Source: Candidatus Gastranaerophilales bacterium
GTDB taxonomy: Bacteria > Cyanobacteriota > Vampirovibrionia > Gastranaerophilales > Gastranaerophilaceae
Reading direction: 5' to 3'
Assembly (NCBI GenBank): GCA_944326585.1
Contig: CALVEN010000001.1
Location: 62,001 to 126,000 of the forward strand
Length of the DNA: 64,000 nt
In this document: positions 5,358 to 62,236 of the stretch, piece after piece
Position numbering within the stretch: the stretch's first letter is position 1
How the letters are laid out: each line of letters opens with the position of its first letter
The notes under the pieces: model-generated
The model's input: the letters and a program-made list of their open reading frames with translations, nothing else
What the model was told of the DNA's origin: nothing
Database searches by the model: none
Made by a program: the position numbers and the translations under genes

Positions 5358-6749
5358 ATGGGGTTGAATTTAAACAGCGTATATCAACGTCCATATTTTA
5401 TACAAGACAGGCGCAATCAGGTCAGAAAAAAACAAGACGAAGAGCGCTCAACTTCTAATGCTCAAAGAGAAGAACAAACAAATCAAAATGCCAGAAGCAG
5501 AGGACTTCAATACGTTGAGCATAATAATTACGCTGCATATCAACCGGTTCATACCGAACACCCCGTTCAATACCCTAACGAAGTTGCAACAGCTCTTGCA
5601 CAGCGTAATCCCAATATAAACATTGCCCAAATTCTTAAAGATTTTAAAAATACGGCAATAGCAATCGGAACGCCCGATGATTTGAAAGAAGAAGTCAGCG
5701 GATATCTTGCGCTGATAGAAAAACAGGTTACAAAAGAAGCCCCGAACAGCAAACTTATTAAATCAAATCTTAAAAATGCAGCCTCAATTTTAGATAATTA
5801 TATTTCCAAAACGCTGGATAAAGATTCAAAAGTTGTGGAAAATTGGGTTGATGCTCTGTTTTTACAGCAAATAGATTTTAAATACAATGAAAATGATGTT
5901 AATCCTGAATTTTTGGTAAAATTTCCGGAAGAAACTCAAAACAGAACCTCTGAAGCGGAAGAAGTGCAAAAAGAGCAGATAAATCCTTTTATTCCGCAGG
6001 ATAAAGAACTTAAAAAGCTCTTTATAAAAGCTAAAAAAATGTCTTATGCAAATAAACCCAAAGAAGCCATAGAAGCTTTCCAAACCGCCCTTGAGCGCGC
6101 AAATGAGGTGGATGATAAAGAAACTCAGTCAAAAATATTTTTAGAAGTCGGTAAAATTTATGATGACCATGATTATCTTGCGCAAGCCTTGAAAAGTTAC
6201 AATCAGTCAGTTCAAAGAACAAAAGACTGCAACGTAAAAACCCGTGCTCATTATTCAATGGCTGAAATTTATAACGACGTAAATCAGATTGAGCCTGCAA
6301 TAGATCATTATTTCAGCACGGTATCCTATGCGGGCGAAGCCGAAAATCTTTCCGCGCAATCTAAATCCATGACAAAAATCGGAAATATTTATTCTGATAT
6401 GTATGAAATGACTGCTTTTGATTACTATGAAATAGCTGATACAATTGCTGATGAAACAGATAATGCAAAAGTGAAAGGTTATGTTTCATCAAGCATCGGC
6501 GATGCTTATGACAAATTCGGCGATTCACCTGAAGCTTTGAAAGCATATTCAAAAGCCGTCAAAAATTATCTTGATGCTGATTCTCCTGAGAAAGCCGCTC
6601 AGAATTATTTGAATGCCGCAGAAATTATGCTTGAATACAAAAATGAGAATAAAGCTAAGAGTCTGCTTGAAAAAGCTCAAAAATTGGCGCGTCAGACAAA
6701 TAATTTGAATTTGATGACAGAAATCAGCAATACTCTGGTTAGTTTATAA
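5358..6749 (+). CDS. Cytoplasmic tetratricopeptide-repeat protein
   Basis: This 463-residue protein has no signal peptide and no catalytic domain that I recognise. Residues 1-75 are Gln/Arg/Asn-rich and probably disordered. Residues about 80-170 form a helical domain. From about residue 210 to the end there are five or six TPR-like helical pairs, for example ANKPKEAIEAFQTALERA, LAQALKSYNQS and SPEALKAYSKAVKNY. TPR arrays are protein-binding scaffolds; the partner is unknown. AGAGG lies nine bases before the ATG. The gene converges on the decarboxylase gene with a four-base gap. Confidence 0.75.
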   Translation: MGLNLNSVYQRPYFIQDRRNQVRKKQDEERSTSNAQREEQTNQNARSRGLQYVEHNNYAAYQPVHTEHPVQYPNEVATALAQRNPNINIAQILKDFKNTAIAIGTPDDLKEEVSGYLALIEKQVTKEAPNSKLIKSNLKNAASILDNYISKTLDKDSKVVENWVDALFLQQIDFKYNENDVNPEFLVKFPEETQNRTSEAEEVQKEQINPFIPQDKELKKLFIKAKKMSYANKPKEAIEAFQTALERANEVDDKETQSKIFLEVGKIYDDHDYLAQALKSYNQSVQRTKDCNVKTRAHYSMAEIYNDVNQIEPAIDHYFSTVSYAGEAENLSAQSKSMTKIGNIYSDMYEMTAFDYYEIADTIADETDNAKVKGYVSSSIGDAYDKFGDSPEALKAYSKAVKNYLDADSPEKAAQNYLNAAEIMLEYKNENKAKSLLEKAQKLARQTNNLNLMTEISNTLVSL

Positions 6750-6753
6750 GTGA

Positions 6754-8178
6754 TCATTTTATAACTTCAAGAAATTCATAATCCGTCAAATACGGCATGT
6801 GGCTTTCGGTTATCAATTCACCCGGGAGCAGAACAGCAATCCCCGGCGGGCATTCTGCAATTATTTCTGCGGAAATCCTGCCGATTGCTTCTGTTTTCGG
6901 GATAGTTTCTTTTTCCGAATAATATGCCTCGCGCAAGTTCATTTTGATAACCGGTGTAAGCATCGGCATGTGTTTTTTATTTTCAAGATAACAGATGTCT
7001 GAATAATTTGTTCTGTCAATTTTTTTCAGGCATTCAACGAGATACTGAATATCGGAGTGTTTGTTGCCGATGTTTGATAACAATAAAAGTCCTGCGTCAG
7101 ATGCGCTTTCAACCTCTATATTAAAATCAATTTCCAAAATGGATTCAAGCCTTTTGCCGGATAAACCGTCAGCTTTGATAAACACTTTTGTAACATCCGT
7201 TTTATATCCGAAATCAGGTTTTAATTGATGAATATGTTCCAATTTATCAATTTCACGGCGTAGATATTTTGCGTTGGAAACTGCTCTTTGAAGTTGTTTT
7301 CTGCCTCTTGGGCTTTCAAGGTTTGCTCTTGCCGCATCAAGACTTGCAAGAAGCATTAAAGAAGGGCTTGTTGTGTGTAAAAGTTTTAGAGCTTTTTCAA
7401 CAGCGTCAACATCCAGAATAGAATTTTCCGCTATGTGGAGCATGGAACTCTGGCTCATGCTGCCGCCTGTTTTGTGAAGTGAATGAACAACGGCATCTGC
7501 GCCGAGTTTTAAGGCAGATGTCGGTAAATGATCGTTAAAATTCCACAAACACGCATGCGCTTCGTCAACAATTAGTGGAACATTGTATTTTTTACATACT
7601 GCGGAAATTGATTTTATATCAGATACAACGCCTTCGTATGTAGGGTTTGTAATCCAGACCATTGACACATCTTTGTTGGTTTTAAGTAATTCTTCAACGC
7701 GGTCAGGGTTTACGTTCCCCCATATTCCCCAGTCTTCAAATCTTTCGGGAATAAGCCATAATGGTTCTGCGCCGGAGATTATCATACCTGTCAGAACTGA
7801 TCTGTGACAGTTTCGGTTTGTTATAATTTTTTGTCCCTGTTTGGTCAAACCCATTGCAAGCGCAAGGTTTCCGGCAGTTGAGCCGTTAAGTAAAAAGAAA
7901 GTTTTTTTGGCGCCGAAAGCTTTTGCAGCAAGTTCTTGCGCTTCTTTTATCGGACCTGTTGCAGGATGAAGTGTTCCTAAATTATCGAATTCATCAGTTG
8001 TATCAACTGCTAAAGCTTTTTTGCCTATAAGCTGTTTGAATTCAGGTAATGCACCGTTGCCTTTTGTATGACCCGGAATGTGAAATTGATATGTAGGATT
8101 GTCGTAAGCCTTTTTTAATGCTTCTACAATCGGGGCATGGGTTTTTGTATATTTATAATTTTTTGTTACAGTTGTCAT
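6754..8178 (-). CDS. Fold-type-I PLP decarboxylase (Orn/Lys/Arg family)
   Basis: Members of this family decarboxylate arginine, lysine or ornithine to agmatine, cadaverine or putrescine. The PLP-binding lysine is visible in HSLHKTGGSMSQSS, the cofactor Asp in LIVDEAHACLW, and FHIPGHTKG near residue 36 is the family's N-terminal signature. The 474-residue length matches the short SpeA-like class of Firmicutes and cyanobacteria, which lacks the wing domain of the E. coli enzymes. I use ATG 8178; the frame stays open upstream to 8406 but that stretch runs through the promoter and into the divergent gene. Substrate cannot be assigned from sequence alone; arginine is the commonest for this class. 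Confidence 0.88.
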   Translation of the reverse strand: MTTVTKNYKYTKTHAPIVEALKKAYDNPTYQFHIPGHTKGNGALPEFKQLIGKKALAVDTTDEFDNLGTLHPATGPIKEAQELAAKAFGAKKTFFLLNGSTAGNLALAMGLTKQGQKIITNRNCHRSVLTGMIISGAEPLWLIPERFEDWGIWGNVNPDRVEELLKTNKDVSMVWITNPTYEGVVSDIKSISAVCKKYNVPLIVDEAHACLWNFNDHLPTSALKLGADAVVHSLHKTGGSMSQSSMLHIAENSILDVDAVEKALKLLHTTSPSLMLLASLDAARANLESPRGRKQLQRAVSNAKYLRREIDKLEHIHQLKPDFGYKTDVTKVFIKADGLSGKRLESILEIDFNIEVESASDAGLLLLSNIGNKHSDIQYLVECLKKIDRTNYSDICYLENKKHMPMLTPVIKMNLREAYYSEKETIPKTEAIGRISAEIIAECPPGIAVLLPGELITESHMPYLTDYEFLEVIK

Positions 8179-8187
8179 AGTAATAAT

Positions 8188-8217
8188 AATATACAATAAA
8201 AAAAAATTAAATTGCAA
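8188..8217 (-). promoter_or_regulatory. Promoter of the PLP decarboxylase (near-leaderless)
   Basis: On the minus strand TTGCAA (8212-8217), an 18-bp spacer and TATATT (8188-8193) lie nine bases before the ATG, leaving a leader of two or three bases at most. Confidence 0.6.
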
Positions 8218-8225
8218 TATGTTTA

Positions 8226-8234
8226 TGATATAAT
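8226..8234 (+). promoter_or_regulatory. Extended -10 promoter of the outer-membrane barrel gene
   Basis: TGATATAAT is an extended -10 whose TATAAT (8229-8234) sits eight bases before the ATG at 8243. No Shine-Dalgarno is present. Confidence 0.6.
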
Positions 8235-8242
8235 TAATATTT

Positions 8243-9517
8243 ATGAAGACCTTTTTACAAACGGTTTTAATTATATTGTTTACATTTATCTCAGGGAGTG
8301 CTTTTGCGGTGGAAGGACTTTCTGTTGAAAAAAATGTTATGGAAGGCGAAATTTTGCTGCCTGAAAATACAAAGCTGCCTGCAAGGGATTTGAATAATGA
8401 CGGCATTATTGACAGTAAAGATTTGTTGATAGATACAAGTGAAGAAAACTTTTTTACGTTTGAGCATCTTGGCGACCCGATAAACAGGGAAGAAGGTTCT
8501 TTGTTTTATAAGATAGAAAAAGCCCTAAAGGCGGAGGTTACAAGAACGGATTACAGTAATTATCTTTTTAAAGATATTTTGACCGTTGATTTGGATAAAG
8601 GTCCTGTAGACAGAATTCAATTTTACGGTAAATACCGCGGTAATATGTCGTTTAATTTTGTTGAACAAGGTGATTATGACGGGGATTATGATATCACCTC
8701 AATTGACGTAGGTATGATGGGGCAGTTTAATCCGAAATATAAAACGGATTTTAAATTACAGTTGAAATTTACGCCGACGTCGGAAAGGACTTTTTTTCAA
8801 AATCTCATAAGCGATGCATATATTGTAAACACGGCAATACCGCATCATCAAATAATGCTCGGGAATTCCCGTAATCAGGTTGGTGTTGAAGGCGGAATGA
8901 GTACAACGTATGTGCCGTTTGTTTTAAGATCACAAATCGCAAGAACATTTGCAAACACCCGTGCTTTTGGTGCAAGGGTTATCGGGAATTATTCCCTTGT
9001 GGATTACAGTTTGGCGTTTAACAGTTCGGACAGGTTTTTCAGGGAATTTTTTCCCGGAGCTGAATTTACGGGCTGGGTGAATTTAAAGCCGCTCGGCAAA
9101 ACCGACGGCAAGTACGGAAAACTTGTGATGGGCGGTGGTTTGAATTCCGGCAGGCGTCATGAAGATTATACAGTAGGCGGTGCATATATAGGCTGGAATT
9201 ATAAAGATTTTATGATAAATGCTGAATATTCTGTTGCAGACGGCTATAATGCCAGAGTTTTTTCAACTGATAAGGCAGAGGGTTTTTATACAACAGTGGG
9301 CTATAAGTTAACTCCGAAAATTCAGCTTGTGGCGCGTTATGACCAATTTGACCCCAACAAAGATTTATCCGGTGACATTAGGCGAGAATATTCTGCCGGT
9401 ATAAACTATTTTGTAATCGGACAGGGCATGAGAATTTTATTAAATTACGTTTATTGTGATAATCAAAATACGGAAGACAGTCACAGACTTATTTTAGGCA
9501 CACAAATATTATTGTAG
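8243..9517 (+). CDS. Predicted outer-membrane beta-barrel protein with a Ca-binding-like loop
   Basis: Residues 1-22 are a signal peptide ending SAFA. Residues about 45-62 carry DLNNDGIIDSKDLL, which fits the DxNxDGxxD calcium loop of dockerin/EF-hand type. The rest is rich in alternating aromatic and polar residues, with repeated beta-strand-like segments (KYRGNMSFNF, DYSLAFNSSDRFF, YIGWNYKDFMINAEY, LLNYVYCDN). The last segment, HRLILGTQILL, is hydrophobic, as expected for the final strand of an outer-membrane barrel although it ends in Leu rather than Phe. Function is probably a porin or channel; the substrate is unknown. It is divergent from the decarboxylase. Confidence 0.7.
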   Translation: MKTFLQTVLIILFTFISGSAFAVEGLSVEKNVMEGEILLPENTKLPARDLNNDGIIDSKDLLIDTSEENFFTFEHLGDPINREEGSLFYKIEKALKAEVTRTDYSNYLFKDILTVDLDKGPVDRIQFYGKYRGNMSFNFVEQGDYDGDYDITSIDVGMMGQFNPKYKTDFKLQLKFTPTSERTFFQNLISDAYIVNTAIPHHQIMLGNSRNQVGVEGGMSTTYVPFVLRSQIARTFANTRAFGARVIGNYSLVDYSLAFNSSDRFFREFFPGAEFTGWVNLKPLGKTDGKYGKLVMGGGLNSGRRHEDYTVGGAYIGWNYKDFMINAEYSVADGYNARVFSTDKAEGFYTTVGYKLTPKIQLVARYDQFDPNKDLSGDIRREYSAGINYFVIGQGMRILLNYVYCDNQNTEDSHRLILGTQILL

Positions 9518-39931: not shown

Positions 39932-39958
39932 AAAACAGGGGAATTTTATTCCCCTGTT
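39932..39958 (-). terminator. Terminator of ferritin
   Basis: AACAGGGG and CCCCTGTT stem that begins within the stop codon; six T residues follow on the minus strand. Confidence 0.8.
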
Positions 39959-40466
39959 AACCTATAACCGGAGCAACAAATGTTCTTGTTGCGAGATCTT
40001 TGTCTAACAATAATAATGCGTGTTTATCGTCACCGATTAGTTCTAATTTTGCAAGAACTCCGCCGACATTGTTTTCTTCTTCAACCTGTTCTTTTAAATA
40101 CCAGTCTAAAAATGACAGTGCTGCGCGGTCTTTTTCTTCTTCTGCCACGTCCATTAATTTGTTAATGCAAGAAGTTACAAATTGTTCGTGTTCAAGAACA
40201 TGTTTAAACACATCCAGAGGTGATGCCCAGTCGGTTTGCGGTTTGTCAATTGCCATAAGCTCAACTTTTCCGCCTCTTTCGTTCAAATAAGTGTACATTC
40301 CCATTGCGTGTGCATGTTCTTCCTGAACCTGTACTGTCATCCAGTTGGTAAAACCTGTCAAATTCATTCTTTCAAAATATGCCTGCATTGATAAATACAG
40401 ATATTCTGAAAATAATTCTTTGTTGATTTGTTCGTTAAAAGCCTTTTCCATTTTTTCAGATATCAT
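39957..40466 (-). CDS. ftnA: Non-haem ferritin
   Basis: Ferritin oxidises Fe2+ and stores it as a mineral in a 24-subunit cage. The diiron ligands are visible: Glu in ELFSEYLYLSMQAYFE, ExxH in VQEEHAHAMGMYTYL, Glu in LEHEQFVTSCI and the later EQVEEENNV. The 169-residue length is typical of FtnA. AAAGGAGAG precedes the ATG. Its transcription start should be in the region shared with the divergent peptide locus. Confidence 0.95.
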   Translation of the reverse strand: MISEKMEKAFNEQINKELFSEYLYLSMQAYFERMNLTGFTNWMTVQVQEEHAHAMGMYTYLNERGGKVELMAIDKPQTDWASPLDVFKHVLEHEQFVTSCINKLMDVAEEEKDRAALSFLDWYLKEQVEEENNVGGVLAKLELIGDDKHALLLLDKDLATRTFVAPVIG

Positions 40467-40551
40467 AATTCTCTCCTTTTTGACTTTAGTTTAACACGTA
40501 AAAATTAAAATGGAATAGGTATAATTTATTAATAATATTTCCTTATAATTA

Positions 40552-40580
40552 TTGACATAAACAAATGAAATTATTATAAT
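40552..40580 (+). promoter_or_regulatory. Sense promoter of small-peptide locus 1
   Basis: TTGACA (40552-40557), 17 bp, TATAAT (40575-40580); predicted start A40587, giving an mRNA beginning AGGGTAGACC. Confidence 0.8.
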
Positions 40581-40599
40581 TTAATCAGGGTAGACCAAA

Positions 40600-40651
40600 T
40601 CACCTCCGCCTCACAACAAACTTTACTGTAAAAAGGGTGGAAAGGAGGTGA
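40600..40651 (+). promoter_or_regulatory. Shine-Dalgarno-sequestering leader helix of locus 1
   Basis: TCACCTCC (40600-40607) is perfectly complementary to GGAGGTGA (40644-40651), the ribosome-binding site of the peptide gene. The full-length mRNA should therefore be translated poorly until refolded or processed. Confidence 0.65.
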
Positions 40652-40656
40652 GAACA

Positions 40657-40731
40657 ATGAAAAGGAAAATAGTAAAAAGTGCTATCAACGCACTGATAGC
40701 ACTTTTACAAATTATTGTTCTTTTCTTGTAG
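40657..40731 (+). CDS. 24-residue hydrophobic peptide, candidate type I toxin (locus 1)
   Basis: The peptide has a basic head (MKRKIVK) and a hydrophobic tail of about 16 residues ending LLQIIVLFL, as in small membrane toxins of type I systems. A near-perfect AAAGGAGGTGA lies six bases before the ATG. Codons 7-17 form a 13-bp inverted repeat that is a terminator for the opposing RNA. A homologous gene of identical length lies at 61176-61250 (10 of 24 residues identical by my alignment). Toxicity is inferred from architecture only. A regulatory leader peptide is the main alternative, but no target gene is positioned for that. Confidence 0.7.
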   Translation: MKRKIVKSAINALIALLQIIVLFL

Positions 40732-40766
40732 GGTCTGTAAAGGCTGTCAGGTGCGACAGCCACCCT
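40674..40766 (-). ncRNA. Predicted antisense RNA of locus 1 (candidate antitoxin)
   Basis: Promoter on the minus strand: TTGACA (40795-40800), 16 bp, TATAAT (40773-40778), start near A40766. It terminates at the 13-bp stem 40675-40706 followed by five U residues (40674-40678), giving about 93 nt that overlap the 3' half of the peptide gene and the 3' hairpin. Confidence 0.65.
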
Positions 40767-40772
40767 ATTTAT

Positions 40773-40800
40773 ATTATAACTCCTTTTCAGGCTTTGTCAA
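40773..40800 (-). promoter_or_regulatory. Antisense promoter of locus 1
   Basis: TTGACA, 16 bp, TATAAT. The spacer (nnGCCTGAAAAnGAGT) is conserved in locus 2, so sequence as well as spacing is maintained. Confidence 0.75.
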
Positions 40801-40869
40801 CTGTTATCCTATTTTGTAATTATATCGGGTAATGAAAAATTTATTGATTTTATTTATACATTAAATGTT

Positions 40870-42189
40870 ATGAATTGTGTAAATAAACTTTTAAAAGCTT
40901 CGGGGCATACAACAAAGCTTAAAAAAGACATCTGGACGGAAAATCATACATATTATGCCATAAATACCACAAAAAAATGGGTGGCAAATATTACGCCTTA
41001 TGAGCTTTTGAGACGTTCTTTAAAACAGGCTGTGGAATCAATTGTGACACTTTCGGAAGGTGATATATTTTATGATACTTTTCCGAATCTTATAGAAACT
41101 CCGAATTACGGGGACAGGTGGGGGCGTCTTGCAAATTATATTGAAATAAATAATCGCGCAATATCCGAGATGCATGAAAACAGGGACTGCTGCGGGATTT
41201 TGAGTATGATAAAAATTCTTCCTGCTATTCCGCCTTCCGCCAGAAGCTGGGCAAATTGTGTAATTATTTCCCAGATTTTTCCGAATATTTTCGGTGACGG
41301 TTATAATAAAGGGCCGTTTGAAGAAAATTCCATATACGGGCTAAAGCTGAATGCCGGCTATAGTGAGAACATAATTTCTTACGGGATTGCGGATAAGATT
41401 ACACCTGAGGAGCAATTGAGAGCATTTAATGATTTGGCGCATTTCAGAGGGATTAAATCAGGGTTCAGAATGGTAATTTCTGCTGATCAAATGAAGGTTG
41501 CATATCCGGATAAACAAGATGTGACTTTTGACTGGAAAAATTCTGAACACGTTGAAATTTACATAAACGAATGTGTAAAGCTTATGAATTTGGGATTTGA
41601 AGCGATGTTTATAGATTCCGCAAAACATATCGGGGGCTATGATATGGGGAATTACACGGGCGTGGGTGCGTTGCCTGAATATCCGCAGATGCAGTATATT
41701 TTGAACGAAATTCGCAGCCGTTCGGGTAAAACCGATATAAGTTTTGTCGGCGAAAAAAGTTCTGATGATTTTGAACGATACAGAATGATGGGGCTTACGG
41801 CAGGTACTGATTATATTACTGGGGATGATTTTTTTGCGGTCAGAGAGTTGTCTGAAAAGTGTAAATATATGAGGGATTATGCCCCTGGAGTTGAAGTCGA
41901 AAATGACAACAACGAAGGCGGTTTGTCTTATGAGCAGAGGCTCAACAGAATTAATTCGGCGCTTTTCGGGTTTTATCTCGCAAGTGATAAATTGCCGAGT
42001 TTTATGCAGACAGGCGATATTTTTCCATTACGGTATGACACAAACACTCATCACATAATGATGACAAACCCTTCATATTCCGAAAACGGCACACCCGAAA
42101 GCCATTGGGAAAATTTGTTTGCCAAAGATGACGGAAAATTTTATAACCACAAAGCAGGTGAGCTTTTTGCACACGCATTAGGCTTATAA
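40870..42189 (+). CDS. TIM-barrel-like protein, possibly GH13-related, unknown
   Basis: A 439-residue soluble protein that I cannot assign firmly. The middle resembles the core of alpha-amylase-type glycoside hydrolases: LGFEAMFIDSAKHIGGYDMG fits the strand-4 motif with the Asp nucleophile followed by A-K-H, and ISFVGEKSSDDFERYR fits strand 5 with the catalytic Glu. The Arg usually two residues before the Asp is not present (MFID), so activity is uncertain. It heads a tight operon (13 bases, then 3) with a ferritin-like protein and a small membrane protein, a combination I do not know. No signal peptide. Confidence 0.5.
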   Translation: MNCVNKLLKASGHTTKLKKDIWTENHTYYAINTTKKWVANITPYELLRRSLKQAVESIVTLSEGDIFYDTFPNLIETPNYGDRWGRLANYIEINNRAISEMHENRDCCGILSMIKILPAIPPSARSWANCVIISQIFPNIFGDGYNKGPFEENSIYGLKLNAGYSENIISYGIADKITPEEQLRAFNDLAHFRGIKSGFRMVISADQMKVAYPDKQDVTFDWKNSEHVEIYINECVKLMNLGFEAMFIDSAKHIGGYDMGNYTGVGALPEYPQMQYILNEIRSRSGKTDISFVGEKSSDDFERYRMMGLTAGTDYITGDDFFAVRELSEKCKYMRDYAPGVEVENDNNEGGLSYEQRLNRINSALFGFYLASDKLPSFMQTGDIFPLRYDTNTHHIMMTNPSYSENGTPESHWENLFAKDDGKFYNHKAGELFAHALGL

Positions 42190-42202
42190 AGAAAGGAGAA
42201 TT

Positions 42203-43510
42203 ATGACATTTAACGCTTTAAAAGAAAAGGGAATTCCTATAGAAAAACAGTTAAAATCCTGGCATGATATTGTAAAAAGACCGTATAAACGAATGGATGT
42301 TGACTGTTACACACGAACAAGACAAATTTTGATGAACGGGATTGAAACTGAAGCCTGGGGTTTCAAACACTGTTTTGCGAGAAAATGTGAAGATAATGAT
42401 TTGAAAATTTTGCTTGCAAAAATCCGACGTCTTGAAGATATGCAGCAGACTACAATTAACTGGTTATCACCAGTAAATCAAACAGTTCTTGACACAACGC
42501 TCGGCTATGAACAAGTTGCGGTGGATTTGACTGCATGGCTTGCACAAAATGAACCTGATGAATATGTTAAAGAAACGTATGATTTCGGTTTGCTGGAGGA
42601 TTTTGACCATTTGTACAGATATTCCCAGTGGGCTTATATGTATGAGGGAAACAATCCTGACGACATTTTGCAGGGAATGACGGATGTCGTAATCGGCAGA
42701 CCGACCCAGAATCACCATAACGATAATGCCGTAAGGCTCAGAAAACATTATGATAAAAATACAGCTTCTCCGCAGACAAAGGTTAATATTTTAACGCTGG
42801 TGTCAGGCGAGCAGCAAACTCATAACTATTACGCAGAACACGGTTTTATGTACGGAAATGACGATTTGAAAAAGACTTATGCAGAAATTTGCGACGTTGA
42901 AGAAGAACACGTTACAATGTATGAATCTTTAATCGACCCGACGGAAACCCCGCTTGAAAAATGGCTTATCCATGAATTTACCGAAGTTTGTAATTATTAT
43001 AATTGCTATGTTGATGAAGTTGATAAACGTCTTAAACTCATCTGGGAAGAAATGCTTGCAATGGAAATCGGTCATTTGCAAGTTGCGGCAGATGTTTTCA
43101 AAAAATATGAAAACCGTGACCCGGAAGAGATTATCGGAACGGATATTATTTTGCCGTGCCATTTTGAAAGCCAGAAAGCCTATGTTAAAAATATTCTGGA
43201 AAACGAAGTCGATAAACGTCTTGATGAAAATATGGACTACACAACAATCGACAAGCTTCCGGATAATTGGGCAAGCTATGACGCACAAAATGCCGTCAAC
43301 GGCAAGGGCGCTCCGACAGAGAAAACAATTCAGCTTATAAAATCAACCCTCAGCCGGGATATTGTCTGTGCGGATAAAAAACTTGTGAAAAAACAGCCCG
43401 AACTTCTCGAGAAAGGTTTGGAACGTAAAGCTCAAGCGCCTGATACGGTTTCCGTTGCGGAATATGAACGAATGACTGAAGTCGAAATTTATGACTTTGA
43501 GGAGGAATAA
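42203..43510 (+). CDS. Ferritin-like (diiron-type) protein, unknown role
   Basis: A 435-residue helical protein with several Glu/His motifs spaced as in ferritin-like diiron proteins: LEDFDHLYRYSQ, GEQQTHNYYAEHG, VEEEHVTMYESL and MEIGHLQVAADVF. The repeated E-x-x-H arrangement suggests a duplicated or extended four-helix bundle. It is larger than ferritin or rubrerythrin and has no rubredoxin Cys pairs. AAAGGAG precedes the ATG. A redox or metal role is inferred only from the ligands. Confidence 0.6.
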   Translation: MTFNALKEKGIPIEKQLKSWHDIVKRPYKRMDVDCYTRTRQILMNGIETEAWGFKHCFARKCEDNDLKILLAKIRRLEDMQQTTINWLSPVNQTVLDTTLGYEQVAVDLTAWLAQNEPDEYVKETYDFGLLEDFDHLYRYSQWAYMYEGNNPDDILQGMTDVVIGRPTQNHHNDNAVRLRKHYDKNTASPQTKVNILTLVSGEQQTHNYYAEHGFMYGNDDLKKTYAEICDVEEEHVTMYESLIDPTETPLEKWLIHEFTEVCNYYNCYVDEVDKRLKLIWEEMLAMEIGHLQVAADVFKKYENRDPEEIIGTDIILPCHFESQKAYVKNILENEVDKRLDENMDYTTIDKLPDNWASYDAQNAVNGKGAPTEKTIQLIKSTLSRDIVCADKKLVKKQPELLEKGLERKAQAPDTVSVAEYERMTEVEIYDFEEE

Positions 43511-43513
43511 ATT

Positions 43514-43768
43514 ATGAATAAAGTAACAGAAATTATACTCGGTACAGCAGCTGTTGCAGCCGGTGCTGTTATGATTTTTATGTTAATCAAAAAAGGCAAG
43601 CGAAATCGTTTGTCTAAACTCCAAACCGGTAAATATGCAGTGGATATGTTCAAAAAGATTACACATGATATGAATAAGGCAATTCGTTCCACAGAAAGGC
43701 GTCTTGCCAAGCACGACAAACTCCAAAAACTCTATGAACAAATGGAGTGGAAAGTTTGTAATAACTAA
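43514..43768 (+). CDS. Small single-pass membrane protein
   Basis: 84 residues: a membrane segment at about 7-25 (IILGTAAVAAGAVMIFMLI), then a basic amphipathic helical tail (KKGKRNRLSK, AIRSTERRLAKHDKLQ). It starts three bases after the ferritin-like gene, with GAGGAATAAATT as ribosome-binding site. It may anchor the operon's soluble proteins to the membrane. A terminator follows. Confidence 0.65.
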   Translation: MNKVTEIILGTAAVAAGAVMIFMLIKKGKRNRLSKLQTGKYAVDMFKKITHDMNKAIRSTERRLAKHDKLQKLYEQMEWKVCNN

Positions 43769-43792
43769 AAGGCTCTGAAAAGAGCCTTTTTT
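43767..43792. terminator. Bidirectional terminator
   Basis: AAAAGGCTC and GAGCCTTTT stem flanked by A and T runs between two convergent units. Confidence 0.8.
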
Positions 43793-43794
43793 AA

Positions 43795-43983
43795 TTAATC
43801 ACAACCACAGGTTGGGCTGAGGGTTCCGTCGCAGCATTGAGCGCTTCCGCCTGAGCAGCCGCACACTCCGCCATGGCTTGAACAGCAGCCGCGGCGGTTT
43901 AAAAGGTCAAAATTTGTCATAACTGCCATACTTGCGCCGGTGCAAAGAATTAAAACAAACATAATTATTAATGCGTTTTTCAT
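43795..43983 (-). CDS. Small exported Cys/Gly-rich peptide
   Basis: A 62-residue protein with an N-terminal hydrophobic segment (residues 4-20, ALIIMFVLILCTGASMAV) acting as signal or anchor. It then has a dense Cys motif, CCSSHGGVCGCSGGSAQCCDG, ending SPTCGCD. The HGGVCGC...CCDGT...SPTC.C pattern is widespread in short bacterial proteins of unknown function. The cysteines probably form disulfides or bind metal outside the cytoplasm. It follows carbonic anhydrase after three bases. Confidence 0.75.
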   Translation of the reverse strand: MKNALIIMFVLILCTGASMAVMTNFDLLNRRGCCSSHGGVCGCSGGSAQCCDGTLSPTCGCD

Positions 43984-61091: not shown

Positions 61092-61119
61092 TTGACATTG
61101 CCTGAAAATGAGTTATAAT
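61092..61119 (+). promoter_or_regulatory. Antisense promoter of small-peptide locus 2
   Basis: TTGACA (61092-61097), 16 bp, TATAAT (61114-61119). Spacer GCCTGAAAA.GAGT is shared with the antisense promoter of locus 1. Confidence 0.75.
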
Positions 61120-61125
61120 GTATAT

Positions 61126-61230
61126 ATAGGGAAATGGTTCCAAGAACCGACATTCCTGAAACCATTCTTAACTCCCTATACAAATTCAGCGAGAATTTGA
61201 ATTAAATGTCCTAGTGTAGCTAGGACTTTT
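61126..61230 (+). ncRNA. Predicted antisense RNA of locus 2 (candidate antitoxin)
   Basis: Starts near A61126-A61128 and ends at a terminator (GTCCTAG, loop TGTAG, CTAGGAC, six T at 61227-61232) that lies inside the opposing peptide gene. About 105 nt, overlapping its 3' half and the 3' hairpin of its mRNA. Confidence 0.65.
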
Positions 61231-61250
61231 TTAATTATGTCCCGTTTCAT
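61176..61250 (-). CDS. 24-residue peptide, candidate type I toxin (locus 2)
   Basis: A peptide of exactly the same length as locus 1, beginning MKRDIIKK and continuing with an amphipathic or hydrophobic stretch that ends ILAEFV. Shared positions include MKR, I, K, L, L, QI and F. The ribosome-binding site AAAGGAGGTGA and the following ACAATGAAA are nearly identical to locus 1. It is less hydrophobic than locus 1, so it may act at the membrane surface rather than span it. Its mRNA should start near A61319. Function is inferred from architecture. Confidence 0.7.
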   Translation of the reverse strand: MKRDIIKKVLATLGHLIQILAEFV

Positions 61251-61254
61251 TGTA

Positions 61255-61303
61255 TCACCTCCTTTCCGCTTTAGTCCCTTAACAAGTCTGTGTCGGAGGA
61301 GGT
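61255..61303 (-). promoter_or_regulatory. Shine-Dalgarno-sequestering leader helix of locus 2
   Basis: On the minus strand ACCTCCTCCG (61294-61303) can pair with CGGA-aa-GGAGGT just before the ATG, ten pairs with a two-base bulge. This is the same device as in locus 1, with different sequence. Confidence 0.6.
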
Positions 61304-61325
61304 ATGGAGCTTACCCTCTGTGTTT

Positions 61326-61354
61326 ATTTTATATTGCTGCGTAAAAAATGTCAA
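61326..61354 (-). promoter_or_regulatory. Sense promoter of locus 2
   Basis: TTGACA (61349-61354), 17 bp, TAAAAT (61326-61331); predicted start A61319, mRNA beginning AGAGGGTAAG. Confidence 0.75.
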
Positions 61355-61372
61355 GAAAAACAGGAAATATTA

Positions 61373-62236
61373 TTAACTGTTTAAAACTGTTTCAAACGCT
61401 AGATTTTCGACAATAGTCTGGATATTCATATTTAATTTCAGTTCTTTTTTGGCTTTTTCAATTGTTTTGATATCAGAGAGGAGTTTTAATTTAAGCTGAG
61501 GATTTTTAAGATTTGATTTTAAAAGGTGAACAAGGTAATTTTGCATTTGAATAAAAACTTCTGAGGGGTCATTTTCTTTTGTGAGTGACAAAATCTCGTC
61601 ATTAAAGTTCAATACTTCGTTTCTTTTTATATCAAGGTAGTTATCCATAAGGTTTTTGACAAGTTCAAAGTTTTGCGGTTCGTCTTTTTTAGACGGGACA
61701 AAAAAGCATTGTGAACGTGAAACAACTGTTGATATCATATCTGAGATATCATTTGTTAAAAAGAAGAAAGTTGTATTGGCGGGAGGTTCTTCAAAAGTTT
61801 TCAACAAAGCATTAGCGGCATCGGTTGAAAAGTTAGTAGGATTAAGCCCGCAGGGTTTGCCGTTTGAATCTTTGTCGCAGAAGATTAAAACTCTGTGGTA
61901 ATCCGATGTTATTGCAAGGTCATTTTTAATCATTCGTGCCTGTGCGATTGAAAACATTGTTTTGGAATCATCATCTGAGGGTTTGTTGTCAACTTTTGAA
62001 TAGGTTAAGACAGCCGGATGCGAATTATTTTTTATCCATGTGCAATTAAGACAATTGCAGTCAGGTGAGGCATCGAGTTTGCAGTTTAAAATTCGTGCTA
62101 TTTCAAGCGCAAGTTCATACTGCGCCTCAATATCATTTCCCCAGAATAAAATGCAGTGAGAAATATTTTTATCGGGATTTTTAATTCCCTTTGTAAAATA
62201 ATCCGTCAGAAATTTGTAGTTTTCATAGATATTCAT
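61373..62236 (-). CDS. holB: DNA polymerase III subunit delta'
   Basis: A clamp-loader subunit. ISHCILFWGNDIEAQYELAL occupies the site of the degenerate P-loop expected in delta'; the zinc module is CKLDASPDCNCLNC; DAANALLKTFEEPPANTTFFFLT and STVVSRSQCFF (SRC motif) are diagnostic. 287 residues. GGAGAGG lies about nine bases before the ATG. It follows holA, so two clamp-loader genes are adjacent. Confidence 0.93.
   Translation of the reverse strand: MNIYENYKFLTDYFTKGIKNPDKNISHCILFWGNDIEAQYELALEIARILNCKLDASPDCNCLNCTWIKNNSHPAVLTYSKVDNKPSDDDSKTMFSIAQARMIKNDLAITSDYHRVLIFCDKDSNGKPCGLNPTNFSTDAANALLKTFEEPPANTTFFFLTNDISDMISTVVSRSQCFFVPSKKDEPQNFELVKNLMDNYLDIKRNEVLNFNDEILSLTKENDPSEVFIQMQNYLVHLLKSNLKNPQLKLKLLSDIKTIEKAKKELKLNMNIQTIVENLAFETVLNS

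Follow-up and report, generated by a model that had tools for sequence, protein, structure and literature searches.

The window analysed here, a stretch of 64,000 nucleotides from a Candidatus Gastranaerophilales bacterium (contig CALVEN010000001.1), contains at 40870-43768 an operon of three open reading frames (ORFs): ORF1, which encodes a GH13-like barrel protein, ORF2, which encodes a tandem ferritin-like protein, and ORF3, which encodes a small protein with one putative membrane helix. ORF1 and ORF2 are treated in the following as one functional unit, the link between them being well supported statistically: Since relatives tend to carry both genes or neither, even where the two are not adjacent, the proteins probably work together. 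The component folds are known, and neither family has a name in the libraries searched. The operon features the following elements:

40870-42189, plus strand: ORF1, 439 codons, GH13-like barrel protein with the putative catalytic residues D249 and E295 (plus D346/N347)
42203-43510, plus strand: ORF2, 435 codons, tandem ferritin-like putative dimetal protein
42341-42646, plus strand: N-terminal four-helix stretch of ORF2, residues 47-148, putative ligands E48, E78, Q81, E103, D133 and H136
42770-43111, plus strand: C-terminal four-helix stretch of ORF2, residues 190-303, putative ligands E203, E233, H236, E258/E261, E288 and H291
43514-43768, plus strand: ORF3, 84 codons, small basic-tailed protein with one putative membrane helix at its N-terminus
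43767-43790, plus strand: intrinsic terminator, predicted as a hairpin
40827-40859, plus strand: conserved block GGGTAATGAAA...TTATAC, ending 10 bases 5' of the ORF1 start, a possible core promoter of the operon

The genes are spaced by 13 bases (ORF1-ORF2) and 3 bases (ORF2-ORF3), with the Shine-Dalgarno-like sequences AAAGGAG for ORF2 and GAGGAG for ORF3. The terminator hairpin has a predicted energy of -14 kcal/mol and a z of -4.75, is equalled by 0 of 200 shuffles and is absent from the listing of a separate pattern scanner. Coordinates, spacing and hairpin agree with the original prediction, made from the letters of the window, of a three-gene operon that ends at a terminator. The upstream block carries GGKAATG at the same position in 11 of 17 rows (the window and 16 loci, judged by eye), and its sequence suggests a possible core promoter. 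Within 160 bases upstream of non-adjacent genes, the motif occurs in 1 of 16 cases for ORF2 (locus L018) and in 0 of 14 for ORF1 or its paralogue; a promoter motif shared by non-adjacent ORF1 and ORF2 genes was discarded after the motif search came back empty.

The host genome has a size of 1.70 Mb and is 99.68% complete, and many records that hold close relatives of the genes are labelled Candidatus Gastranaerophilales. ORF1 and ORF2 are genuine genes because their homologues recur across genomes: Among 59 genomes, its own included, ORF2 is found in 26 and ORF1, in either form, in 35. Pfam and NCBIfam give nothing above cut-off for ORF1, ORF2 or ORF3, the best PADLOC or PHROGs match for the three proteins is no better than E 0.012, and no Rfam family reaches its gathering score across 40400-43900. 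Nothing on these proteins or on the ORF1-ORF2 pairing was found in the literature searched.

Coupling of ORF1 and ORF2

In a survey of 386 genomes of the phylum, ORF2 is present in 127 and main-form ORF1 in 128 (149 counting a paralogue); 117 genomes have both. The original prediction had named conservation of the gene neighbourhood as a check, and linkage is conserved in 51 of the 117, where ORF1 lies first, on the same strand and within 1 kb of ORF2. Six of the other 66 have the two genes on one contig: In G250 they adjoin each other with the order reversed, and in the other five they lie at a distance or on opposite strands. The remaining 60 have them on different contigs. Inspection of 23 ORF2 loci places ORF1 directly upstream in 15 (one of them cut by the contig end), amid varied flanks.

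Within the family, 192 genomes drawn at a completeness of at least 90% divide into 114 with both genes, 8 with ORF2 only, 15 with ORF1 only and 55 with neither (odds ratio 52, p 2e-25); main-form ORF1 is taken here as a listed match of about 600 bits or more, and three of the eight ORF2-only genomes (G138, G160 and G178) show weak ORF1 matches. Stratified by genus, the Mantel-Haenszel odds ratio is 27 (p 5e-14); this test covers 181 of the 192 genomes, as 11 without a known genus, all carrying neither gene, drop out, and it removes kinship only partly, shared ancestry within genera remaining. Co-occurrence persists in the 13 genera with non-adjacent carriers, with counts of 54, 5, 4 and 20 in the same order and a stratified p of 1.7e-7; here, genus g41 was omitted owing to G250, single-genome genera contribute nothing, and adjacency was in part judged by eye.

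The ORF1 paralogue, which has about 40-48% identity to ORF1 and is common across the genus and family, serves as a control. Its presence, judged by how many matches each genome has, is not positively associated with ORF2 (43, 79, 30 and 40 genomes; odds ratio 0.73, p 0.35; stratified odds ratio 0.27, p 0.09). The copy at L122 (G000:C5:66787-68022) is 43% identical to ORF1 and has a longer N-terminus. An N-terminal F[TKRS]G targeting tag, prompted by a paralogue, was rejected for want of enrichment (9 seen versus 11 expected).

The barrel protein and the tandem ferritin-like protein

Judged from sequence and predicted model, ORF1 has a GH13-like barrel whose active site is reshaped; it is not a GH13 member, and it is probably an enzyme. 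The models were computed from 14 (ORF1) and 22 (ORF2) related sequences. That of ORF1 has a predicted local distance difference test score (pLDDT) of 65.5 and a predicted template modelling score (pTM) of 0.77, and features the (beta/alpha)8 barrel of GH13 (PF00128). An amylase is its top match in Foldseek (E 8e-7; 231 chains at E <= 0.001), and structure comparison by VIA aligns 340 residues with the Thermotoga maritima maltosyltransferase 1gju at Z 15.9 and a root mean square deviation (rmsd) of 4.2, GlgE matches reaching Z 14.9. The TIM-barrel-like first protein anticipated from the letters is borne out by this model.

A PDB sequence search with a 32-sequence ORF1 profile gives no match, nor does PF00128 match ORF1 at E <= 1, a profile that does detect other genes in 21 of 21 genomes. 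The alignment by hhalign of ORF1 with a profile of five GH13 proteins from related genomes has a probability of 16% (one-on-one E 0.0016) and brings the region-I, nucleophile and acid/base stretches into the correct order, an order not reproduced with single GH13 proteins or another pair. This weak alignment places D249 on the nucleophile Asp and E295 on the acid/base Glu, both present in 32 of 32 ORF1 sequences. For the region-IV His-Asp of GH13, the residues concerned are D346 and N347 (32 of 32) and N345 (31 of 32), in an uncertain register. Position 247, in GH13 the region-II Arg two residues before the nucleophile, is Phe in 30 and Tyr in 2 of the 32 sequences, and position 200, the region-I Asp, is Arg in all 32. 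Because this arginine and this aspartate are missing, ORF1 is not filed as GH13.

ORF2 is a member of an unnamed family, spread over several phyla, whose proteins have ferritin-like domains in tandem. Its model (pLDDT 74.9, pTM 0.82) features two four-helix stretches, residues 47-148 and 190-303, and predicts the four-helix bundle of the ferritin-like dimetal carboxylate superfamily, with fold matches of middling Z. The best Dps-like, rubrerythrin and Mn-catalase matches in VIA have Z 11.7-12.3, KatB is matched at Z 11.8 (rmsd 4.4-4.8), and NrdF and an aldehyde-deformylating oxidase are also among the matches; families unlisted by VIA or Foldseek are not thereby excluded. The top Pfam match is Rubrerythrin (PF02915) with 16.9 bits versus a cut-off of 22.8, no Mn-catalase family is listed among the Pfam matches at E <= 1, and the PDB sequence search returns three weak matches. 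The sequence contains no CxxC pair and hence none for a rubredoxin domain. In a weak alignment with rubrerythrin 1b71 (E 0.73), E20, E53 and H56, ligands of that protein, fall on E203, E233 and H236 of ORF2, whose C half carries the ligand order E...ExxH...E...ExxH.

The two halves of ORF2 look like a duplication with two putative metal sites, as far as the sequence indicates. Residues 64-159 pair without gaps with 219-314 in hhalign (E 9e-4, probability 22%), an offset of 155 that ranks top of 240 for conserved D/E/H/Q column pairs (13 versus 9 for the runner-up) and top of 220 for ungapped identity (0.208 versus 0.142). The positions paired in this way are E48/E203, E78/E233, Q81/H236, E103/E258, D133/E288 and H136/H291. 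The ligand alignment comprises 11 sequences from Gastranaerophilales, G069 (a remote member of the phylum), Tistrella, Nonomuraea, Streptantibioticus, Pandoraea and Subdoligranulum; the third G069 copy (L112, 20% identity) was excluded from the count. All six N-site positions (E48, E78, Q81, E103, D133 and H136) are invariant in 11 of 11, with Gln81 occupying a His position. At the C site, E233 and H236 are kept without exception, L111 has Lys in place of E203, E258 varies (E/Q/H), and E261, E288 and H291 are found in 10 of the 10 sequences that reach there. ORF2 possesses the Glu/His set of the ferritin-like dimetal superfamily, its putative ligands being almost fully conserved over several phyla. 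Structure prediction, another check proposed at the outset, gave for ORF1 and ORF2 the two kinds of fold that had been expected, a barrel and ferritin-type helical bundles, and neither the folds nor the linkage refuted the original prediction; the picture of a single large ferritin gives way to a tandem duplication.

Two candidate contexts for these proteins were rejected. Profiles of EncB and MbfA match ORF2 relatives weakly, far below cut-off, and ORF2 as an encapsulin cargo of the EncFtn type was dismissed because none of 21 genomes from the genus and order, that of the window among them, has the shell gene PF04454; a control set gave matches in 3 of 14, and the search did not specifically target the genomes of L066, L072 and L075. 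A phage origin was dismissed as a search of phages gave no match for ORF1, ORF2 or a Pandoraea relative. One ORF2 relative lies in a viral-labelled contig, of which 5.9 kb were inspected and resemble, by eye, restriction genes and not phage genes.

ORF3 and the surrounding genes

As a third member of the operon, genes of ORF3 type recur but are optional and change fast. Near its N-terminus ORF3 has a single, strongly hydrophobic stretch (19-residue mean hydropathy 2.53), in keeping with the small membrane protein of the original prediction; genes of this type occur at part of the loci only. With tblastn, homologues are found at seven of the eleven further loci of the genus that carry ORF1 or ORF2 (L002-L005, L008, L037 and L038) and none at L006, L007 and L009, and L011 ends 195 bases after ORF2. 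L037 and L038 contain ORF1 and an ORF3 homologue and lack ORF2. Outside the genus, a marginal match follows ORF2 at L018 (E 7e-4). The 120 bases 3' of ORF2 were scanned at 36 loci for an ORF preceded by a ribosome site; a protein of 84-97 residues with one strong hydrophobic stretch follows in 8, split (counted by hand) into 7 of 20 with ORF1 in front and 1 of 16 without; L064 has a hydrophobic protein of 78 residues after ORF2. In the other genera of L010, L012, L013 and L018, proteins of 88-97 residues with one hydrophobic stretch and little sequence likeness stand at the position of ORF3. The idea that ORF3 is limited to its genus, where tblastn mainly finds it, was given up in view of these four loci, whose proteins may be homologues.

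A standard ferritin gene lies upstream of the operon (39957-40466), and in 3 of 23 loci a gene for 98-100 residues directly follows ORF2 (L066 9305-9598, L072 9315-9608 and L075 9309-9608), its product at L066, the one scanned of the three, being Rubrerythrin/EncFtn-like. A plasmid search yielded seven records with ORF2 relatives of 39.5-43.4% identity, six of which were examined, the seventh being the same Streptantibioticus plasmid. In five of the six, genes of DUF892 (the ferritin-like family of YciE), DUF4142, ferritin-like or hemerythrin type adjoin the relative: DUF4142 and DUF892 in Tistrella, ferritin-like and DUF892 for the two Pandoraea relatives, and hemerythrin in Streptantibioticus and Nonomuraea. 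In the sixth, from Subdoligranulum, the neighbour is a divergently oriented GH13 amylase gene (PF00128 E 3e-45). At this locus (L170, OY725846.1, Clostridia), the ORF2 relative and the amylase form a head-to-head pair at 6244-7551 (minus strand) and 8001-9248 (plus strand), and the starts of further genes resemble, by eye, GH3 beta-glucosidases. A fixed further partner was sought among the lineages examined and discarded, as no neighbour is constant.

Two side elements flank the operon. Upstream, an element of about 300 bases at 40517-40821 has a type I toxin-antitoxin layout: a 24-residue hydrophobic peptide with a strong ribosome site, a complementary stretch upstream, two perfect TTGACA/TATAAT promoters placed face-to-face, and a terminator-like hairpin on the minus strand. 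Copies lie at 61092-61376 (minus strand) of the window, G000:C1:41905-42116 and G000:C1:161587-161796; the genome contains seven matches, the element itself and its own inverted part included, and four distinct copies encode related peptides of 23-24 residues. BLASTN skips the element in the relatives L059/L031 (one genome), L034 and L037. Downstream, a 62-residue Cys/Gly-rich protein with an N-terminal hydrophobic stretch and no Pfam match at E <= 1 is encoded at 43795-43983 (minus strand) and adjoins a carbonic anhydrase gene.

Possible functions and relation to known systems

The preferred explanation, held tentatively at a probability of roughly 0.4, is a stress/storage unit that combines a glucan-type enzyme with a dimetal peroxide/iron protein. 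ORF2 would hold two dimetal centres, probably di-iron or Fe/Mn to judge from the observed ligand pattern, and would most likely remove peroxide or handle iron. ORF1, a GH13-related enzyme with a reshaped barrel in the predicted fold, may act on alpha-glucan, a sugar phosphate or a similar glycan. Together they would confer an accessory trait, most plausibly survival of oxidative or starvation stress by storage-glycan processing and redox/iron protection. The site of action is presumably the cytosol, no signal peptide being seen by eye, and ORF3 is perhaps an optional membrane tether. This stress/storage unit is favoured over a biosynthetic pair, an iron store and mere co-variation because of the residues, the coupling and the peroxide link of the precedent described below.

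Several observations weigh against this reading. Both models are of moderate quality (pLDDT 65.5 and 74.9), the GH13 profile match of ORF1 is weak (hhalign probability 16%), and ORF1 was found only within its order, the searches beyond it, in phages, plasmids and viral contigs, giving no match. The ORF2 model yields nothing in Foldseek at E <= 0.001 (best 0.26), its VIA matches stay below Z 13, which according to a warning of the tool helical bundles commonly reach, and the ferritin matches extend over both halves. The excluded copy L112 lacks E48, E78, Q81, D133, E258, E261 and H291 and retains E103, H136, E203, E233, H236 and E288. The GH13 neighbour outside the phylum is one case, and in G069, from another family, the neighbours of three divergent ORF2 relatives are a gene of the BrkB family, one for a UvrD helicase and one without assignment. 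Where ORF1 and ORF2 are not adjacent, their upstream regions have no motif in common (GGKAATG in 1 of 30), and separate contigs are no proof of distance between the two. The stress theme comes from neighbours and analogy alone, and the chemistry of ORF1 and ORF2 (substrate, metal and activity) is extrapolated from sequence, models and analogy.

The same residues could serve biosynthesis, ORF2 being a di-iron oxygenase or oxidase and ORF1 a barrel enzyme (transferase or lyase), the two acting one after the other on a single small molecule or glycan modification to give an accessory metabolite. Full Glu/His ligand sets as in R2/oxygenase-type proteins, the NrdF and aldehyde-deformylating oxidase matches, a patchy yet coupled presence, and the active site of ORF1, which is reshaped and has numerous invariant polar residues, fit this view. 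However, the hosts are gut bacteria and probable anaerobes, which makes chemistry that depends on O2 less likely, the neighbours examined share no further constant biosynthetic gene, and distant ORF2 relatives lie among stress-type ferritin-like genes; such a pair appears somewhat unlikely. In several lineages the neighbours are of ferritin, DUF892, hemerythrin or EncFtn-like type; together with the standard ferritin gene upstream and the weak, far sub-cut-off EncB and MbfA matches, they could instead point to iron storage or trafficking, with ORF2 as a ferritin-type store or oxidase and ORF1 as a non-catalytic partner (scaffold or glycan-binding). The invariance of the putative catalytic residues of ORF1 (32 of 32) and the lack of an encapsulin gene in all 21 genomes speak against it and render it unlikely. 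The two genes might also have no joint function and co-vary as lifestyle markers, for instance of host or diet, being neighbours at times by descent: 66 of the 117 genomes with both do not have them adjacent in ORF1-ORF2 order, and genus stratification removes shared ancestry only partly. This is distinctly improbable, since the equally accessory paralogue has no positive association with ORF2, and adjacency recurs amid different flanks.

A further reading is an undescribed two-protein enzyme, in which a GH13-derived barrel that lost the canonical -1 subsite arginine and a tandem di-iron protein would perform redox-dependent glycan processing, such as cleaving or modifying a storage polysaccharide with peroxide or O2 as the driver. 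It is a doubtful proposal; if true, the ORF2 family would be a multi-phylum dimetal family used elsewhere beside DUF892, DUF4142 and hemerythrin genes. In an uncultured gut lineage, two unnamed families are coupled, both through neighbouring genes and through joint presence in genera without adjacency. The tandem ferritin-like family, with its 12 putative metal ligands, is suited to structure and metal analysis, and the substrate of the altered-site GH13-like barrel would inform on carbon storage or stress survival in Gastranaerophilales.

Compared with the GH13 superfamily (maltosyltransferase, GlgE and neopullulanase-type), ORF1 has the barrel fold in its model and aligns weakly in the D249 and E295 regions, but it differs by having no Pfam match, Phe/Tyr in place of the region-II Arg, and Arg200 in place of the region-I Asp. 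ORF2 shares four-helix bundles, the ligand order of its C half and the 1b71 alignment with the rubrerythrin/ferritin-like superfamily (also Mn-catalase, Dps-like and COQ7), whereas it fuses two bundles with a C-terminal tail, stays under every family cut-off and lacks a CxxC pair. The original prediction knew of no pathway uniting a barrel with a diiron-like protein and in this overlooked a precedent from Pseudomonas: One paper describes the PA2134-PA2190 region with glg genes, katE, and PA2184 close to katN, pairs PA2184 with Escherichia coli yciE in a table, and reports that biofilms of a PA2184 mutant are susceptible to hydrogen peroxide (PMC9262955). The yciGFE-katN operon of Salmonella is described in another (PMC8208086). 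In these proteobacterial stress clusters, which contain yciE, katN/katE and glycogen/trehalose genes, alpha-glucan genes stand beside catalase and YciE-type genes (PMC9262955, PMC8208086). No family-level homology of theirs to ORF1 or ORF2 was seen; the arrangement in Gastranaerophilales is, in contrast, a two-gene core with a reshaped barrel.

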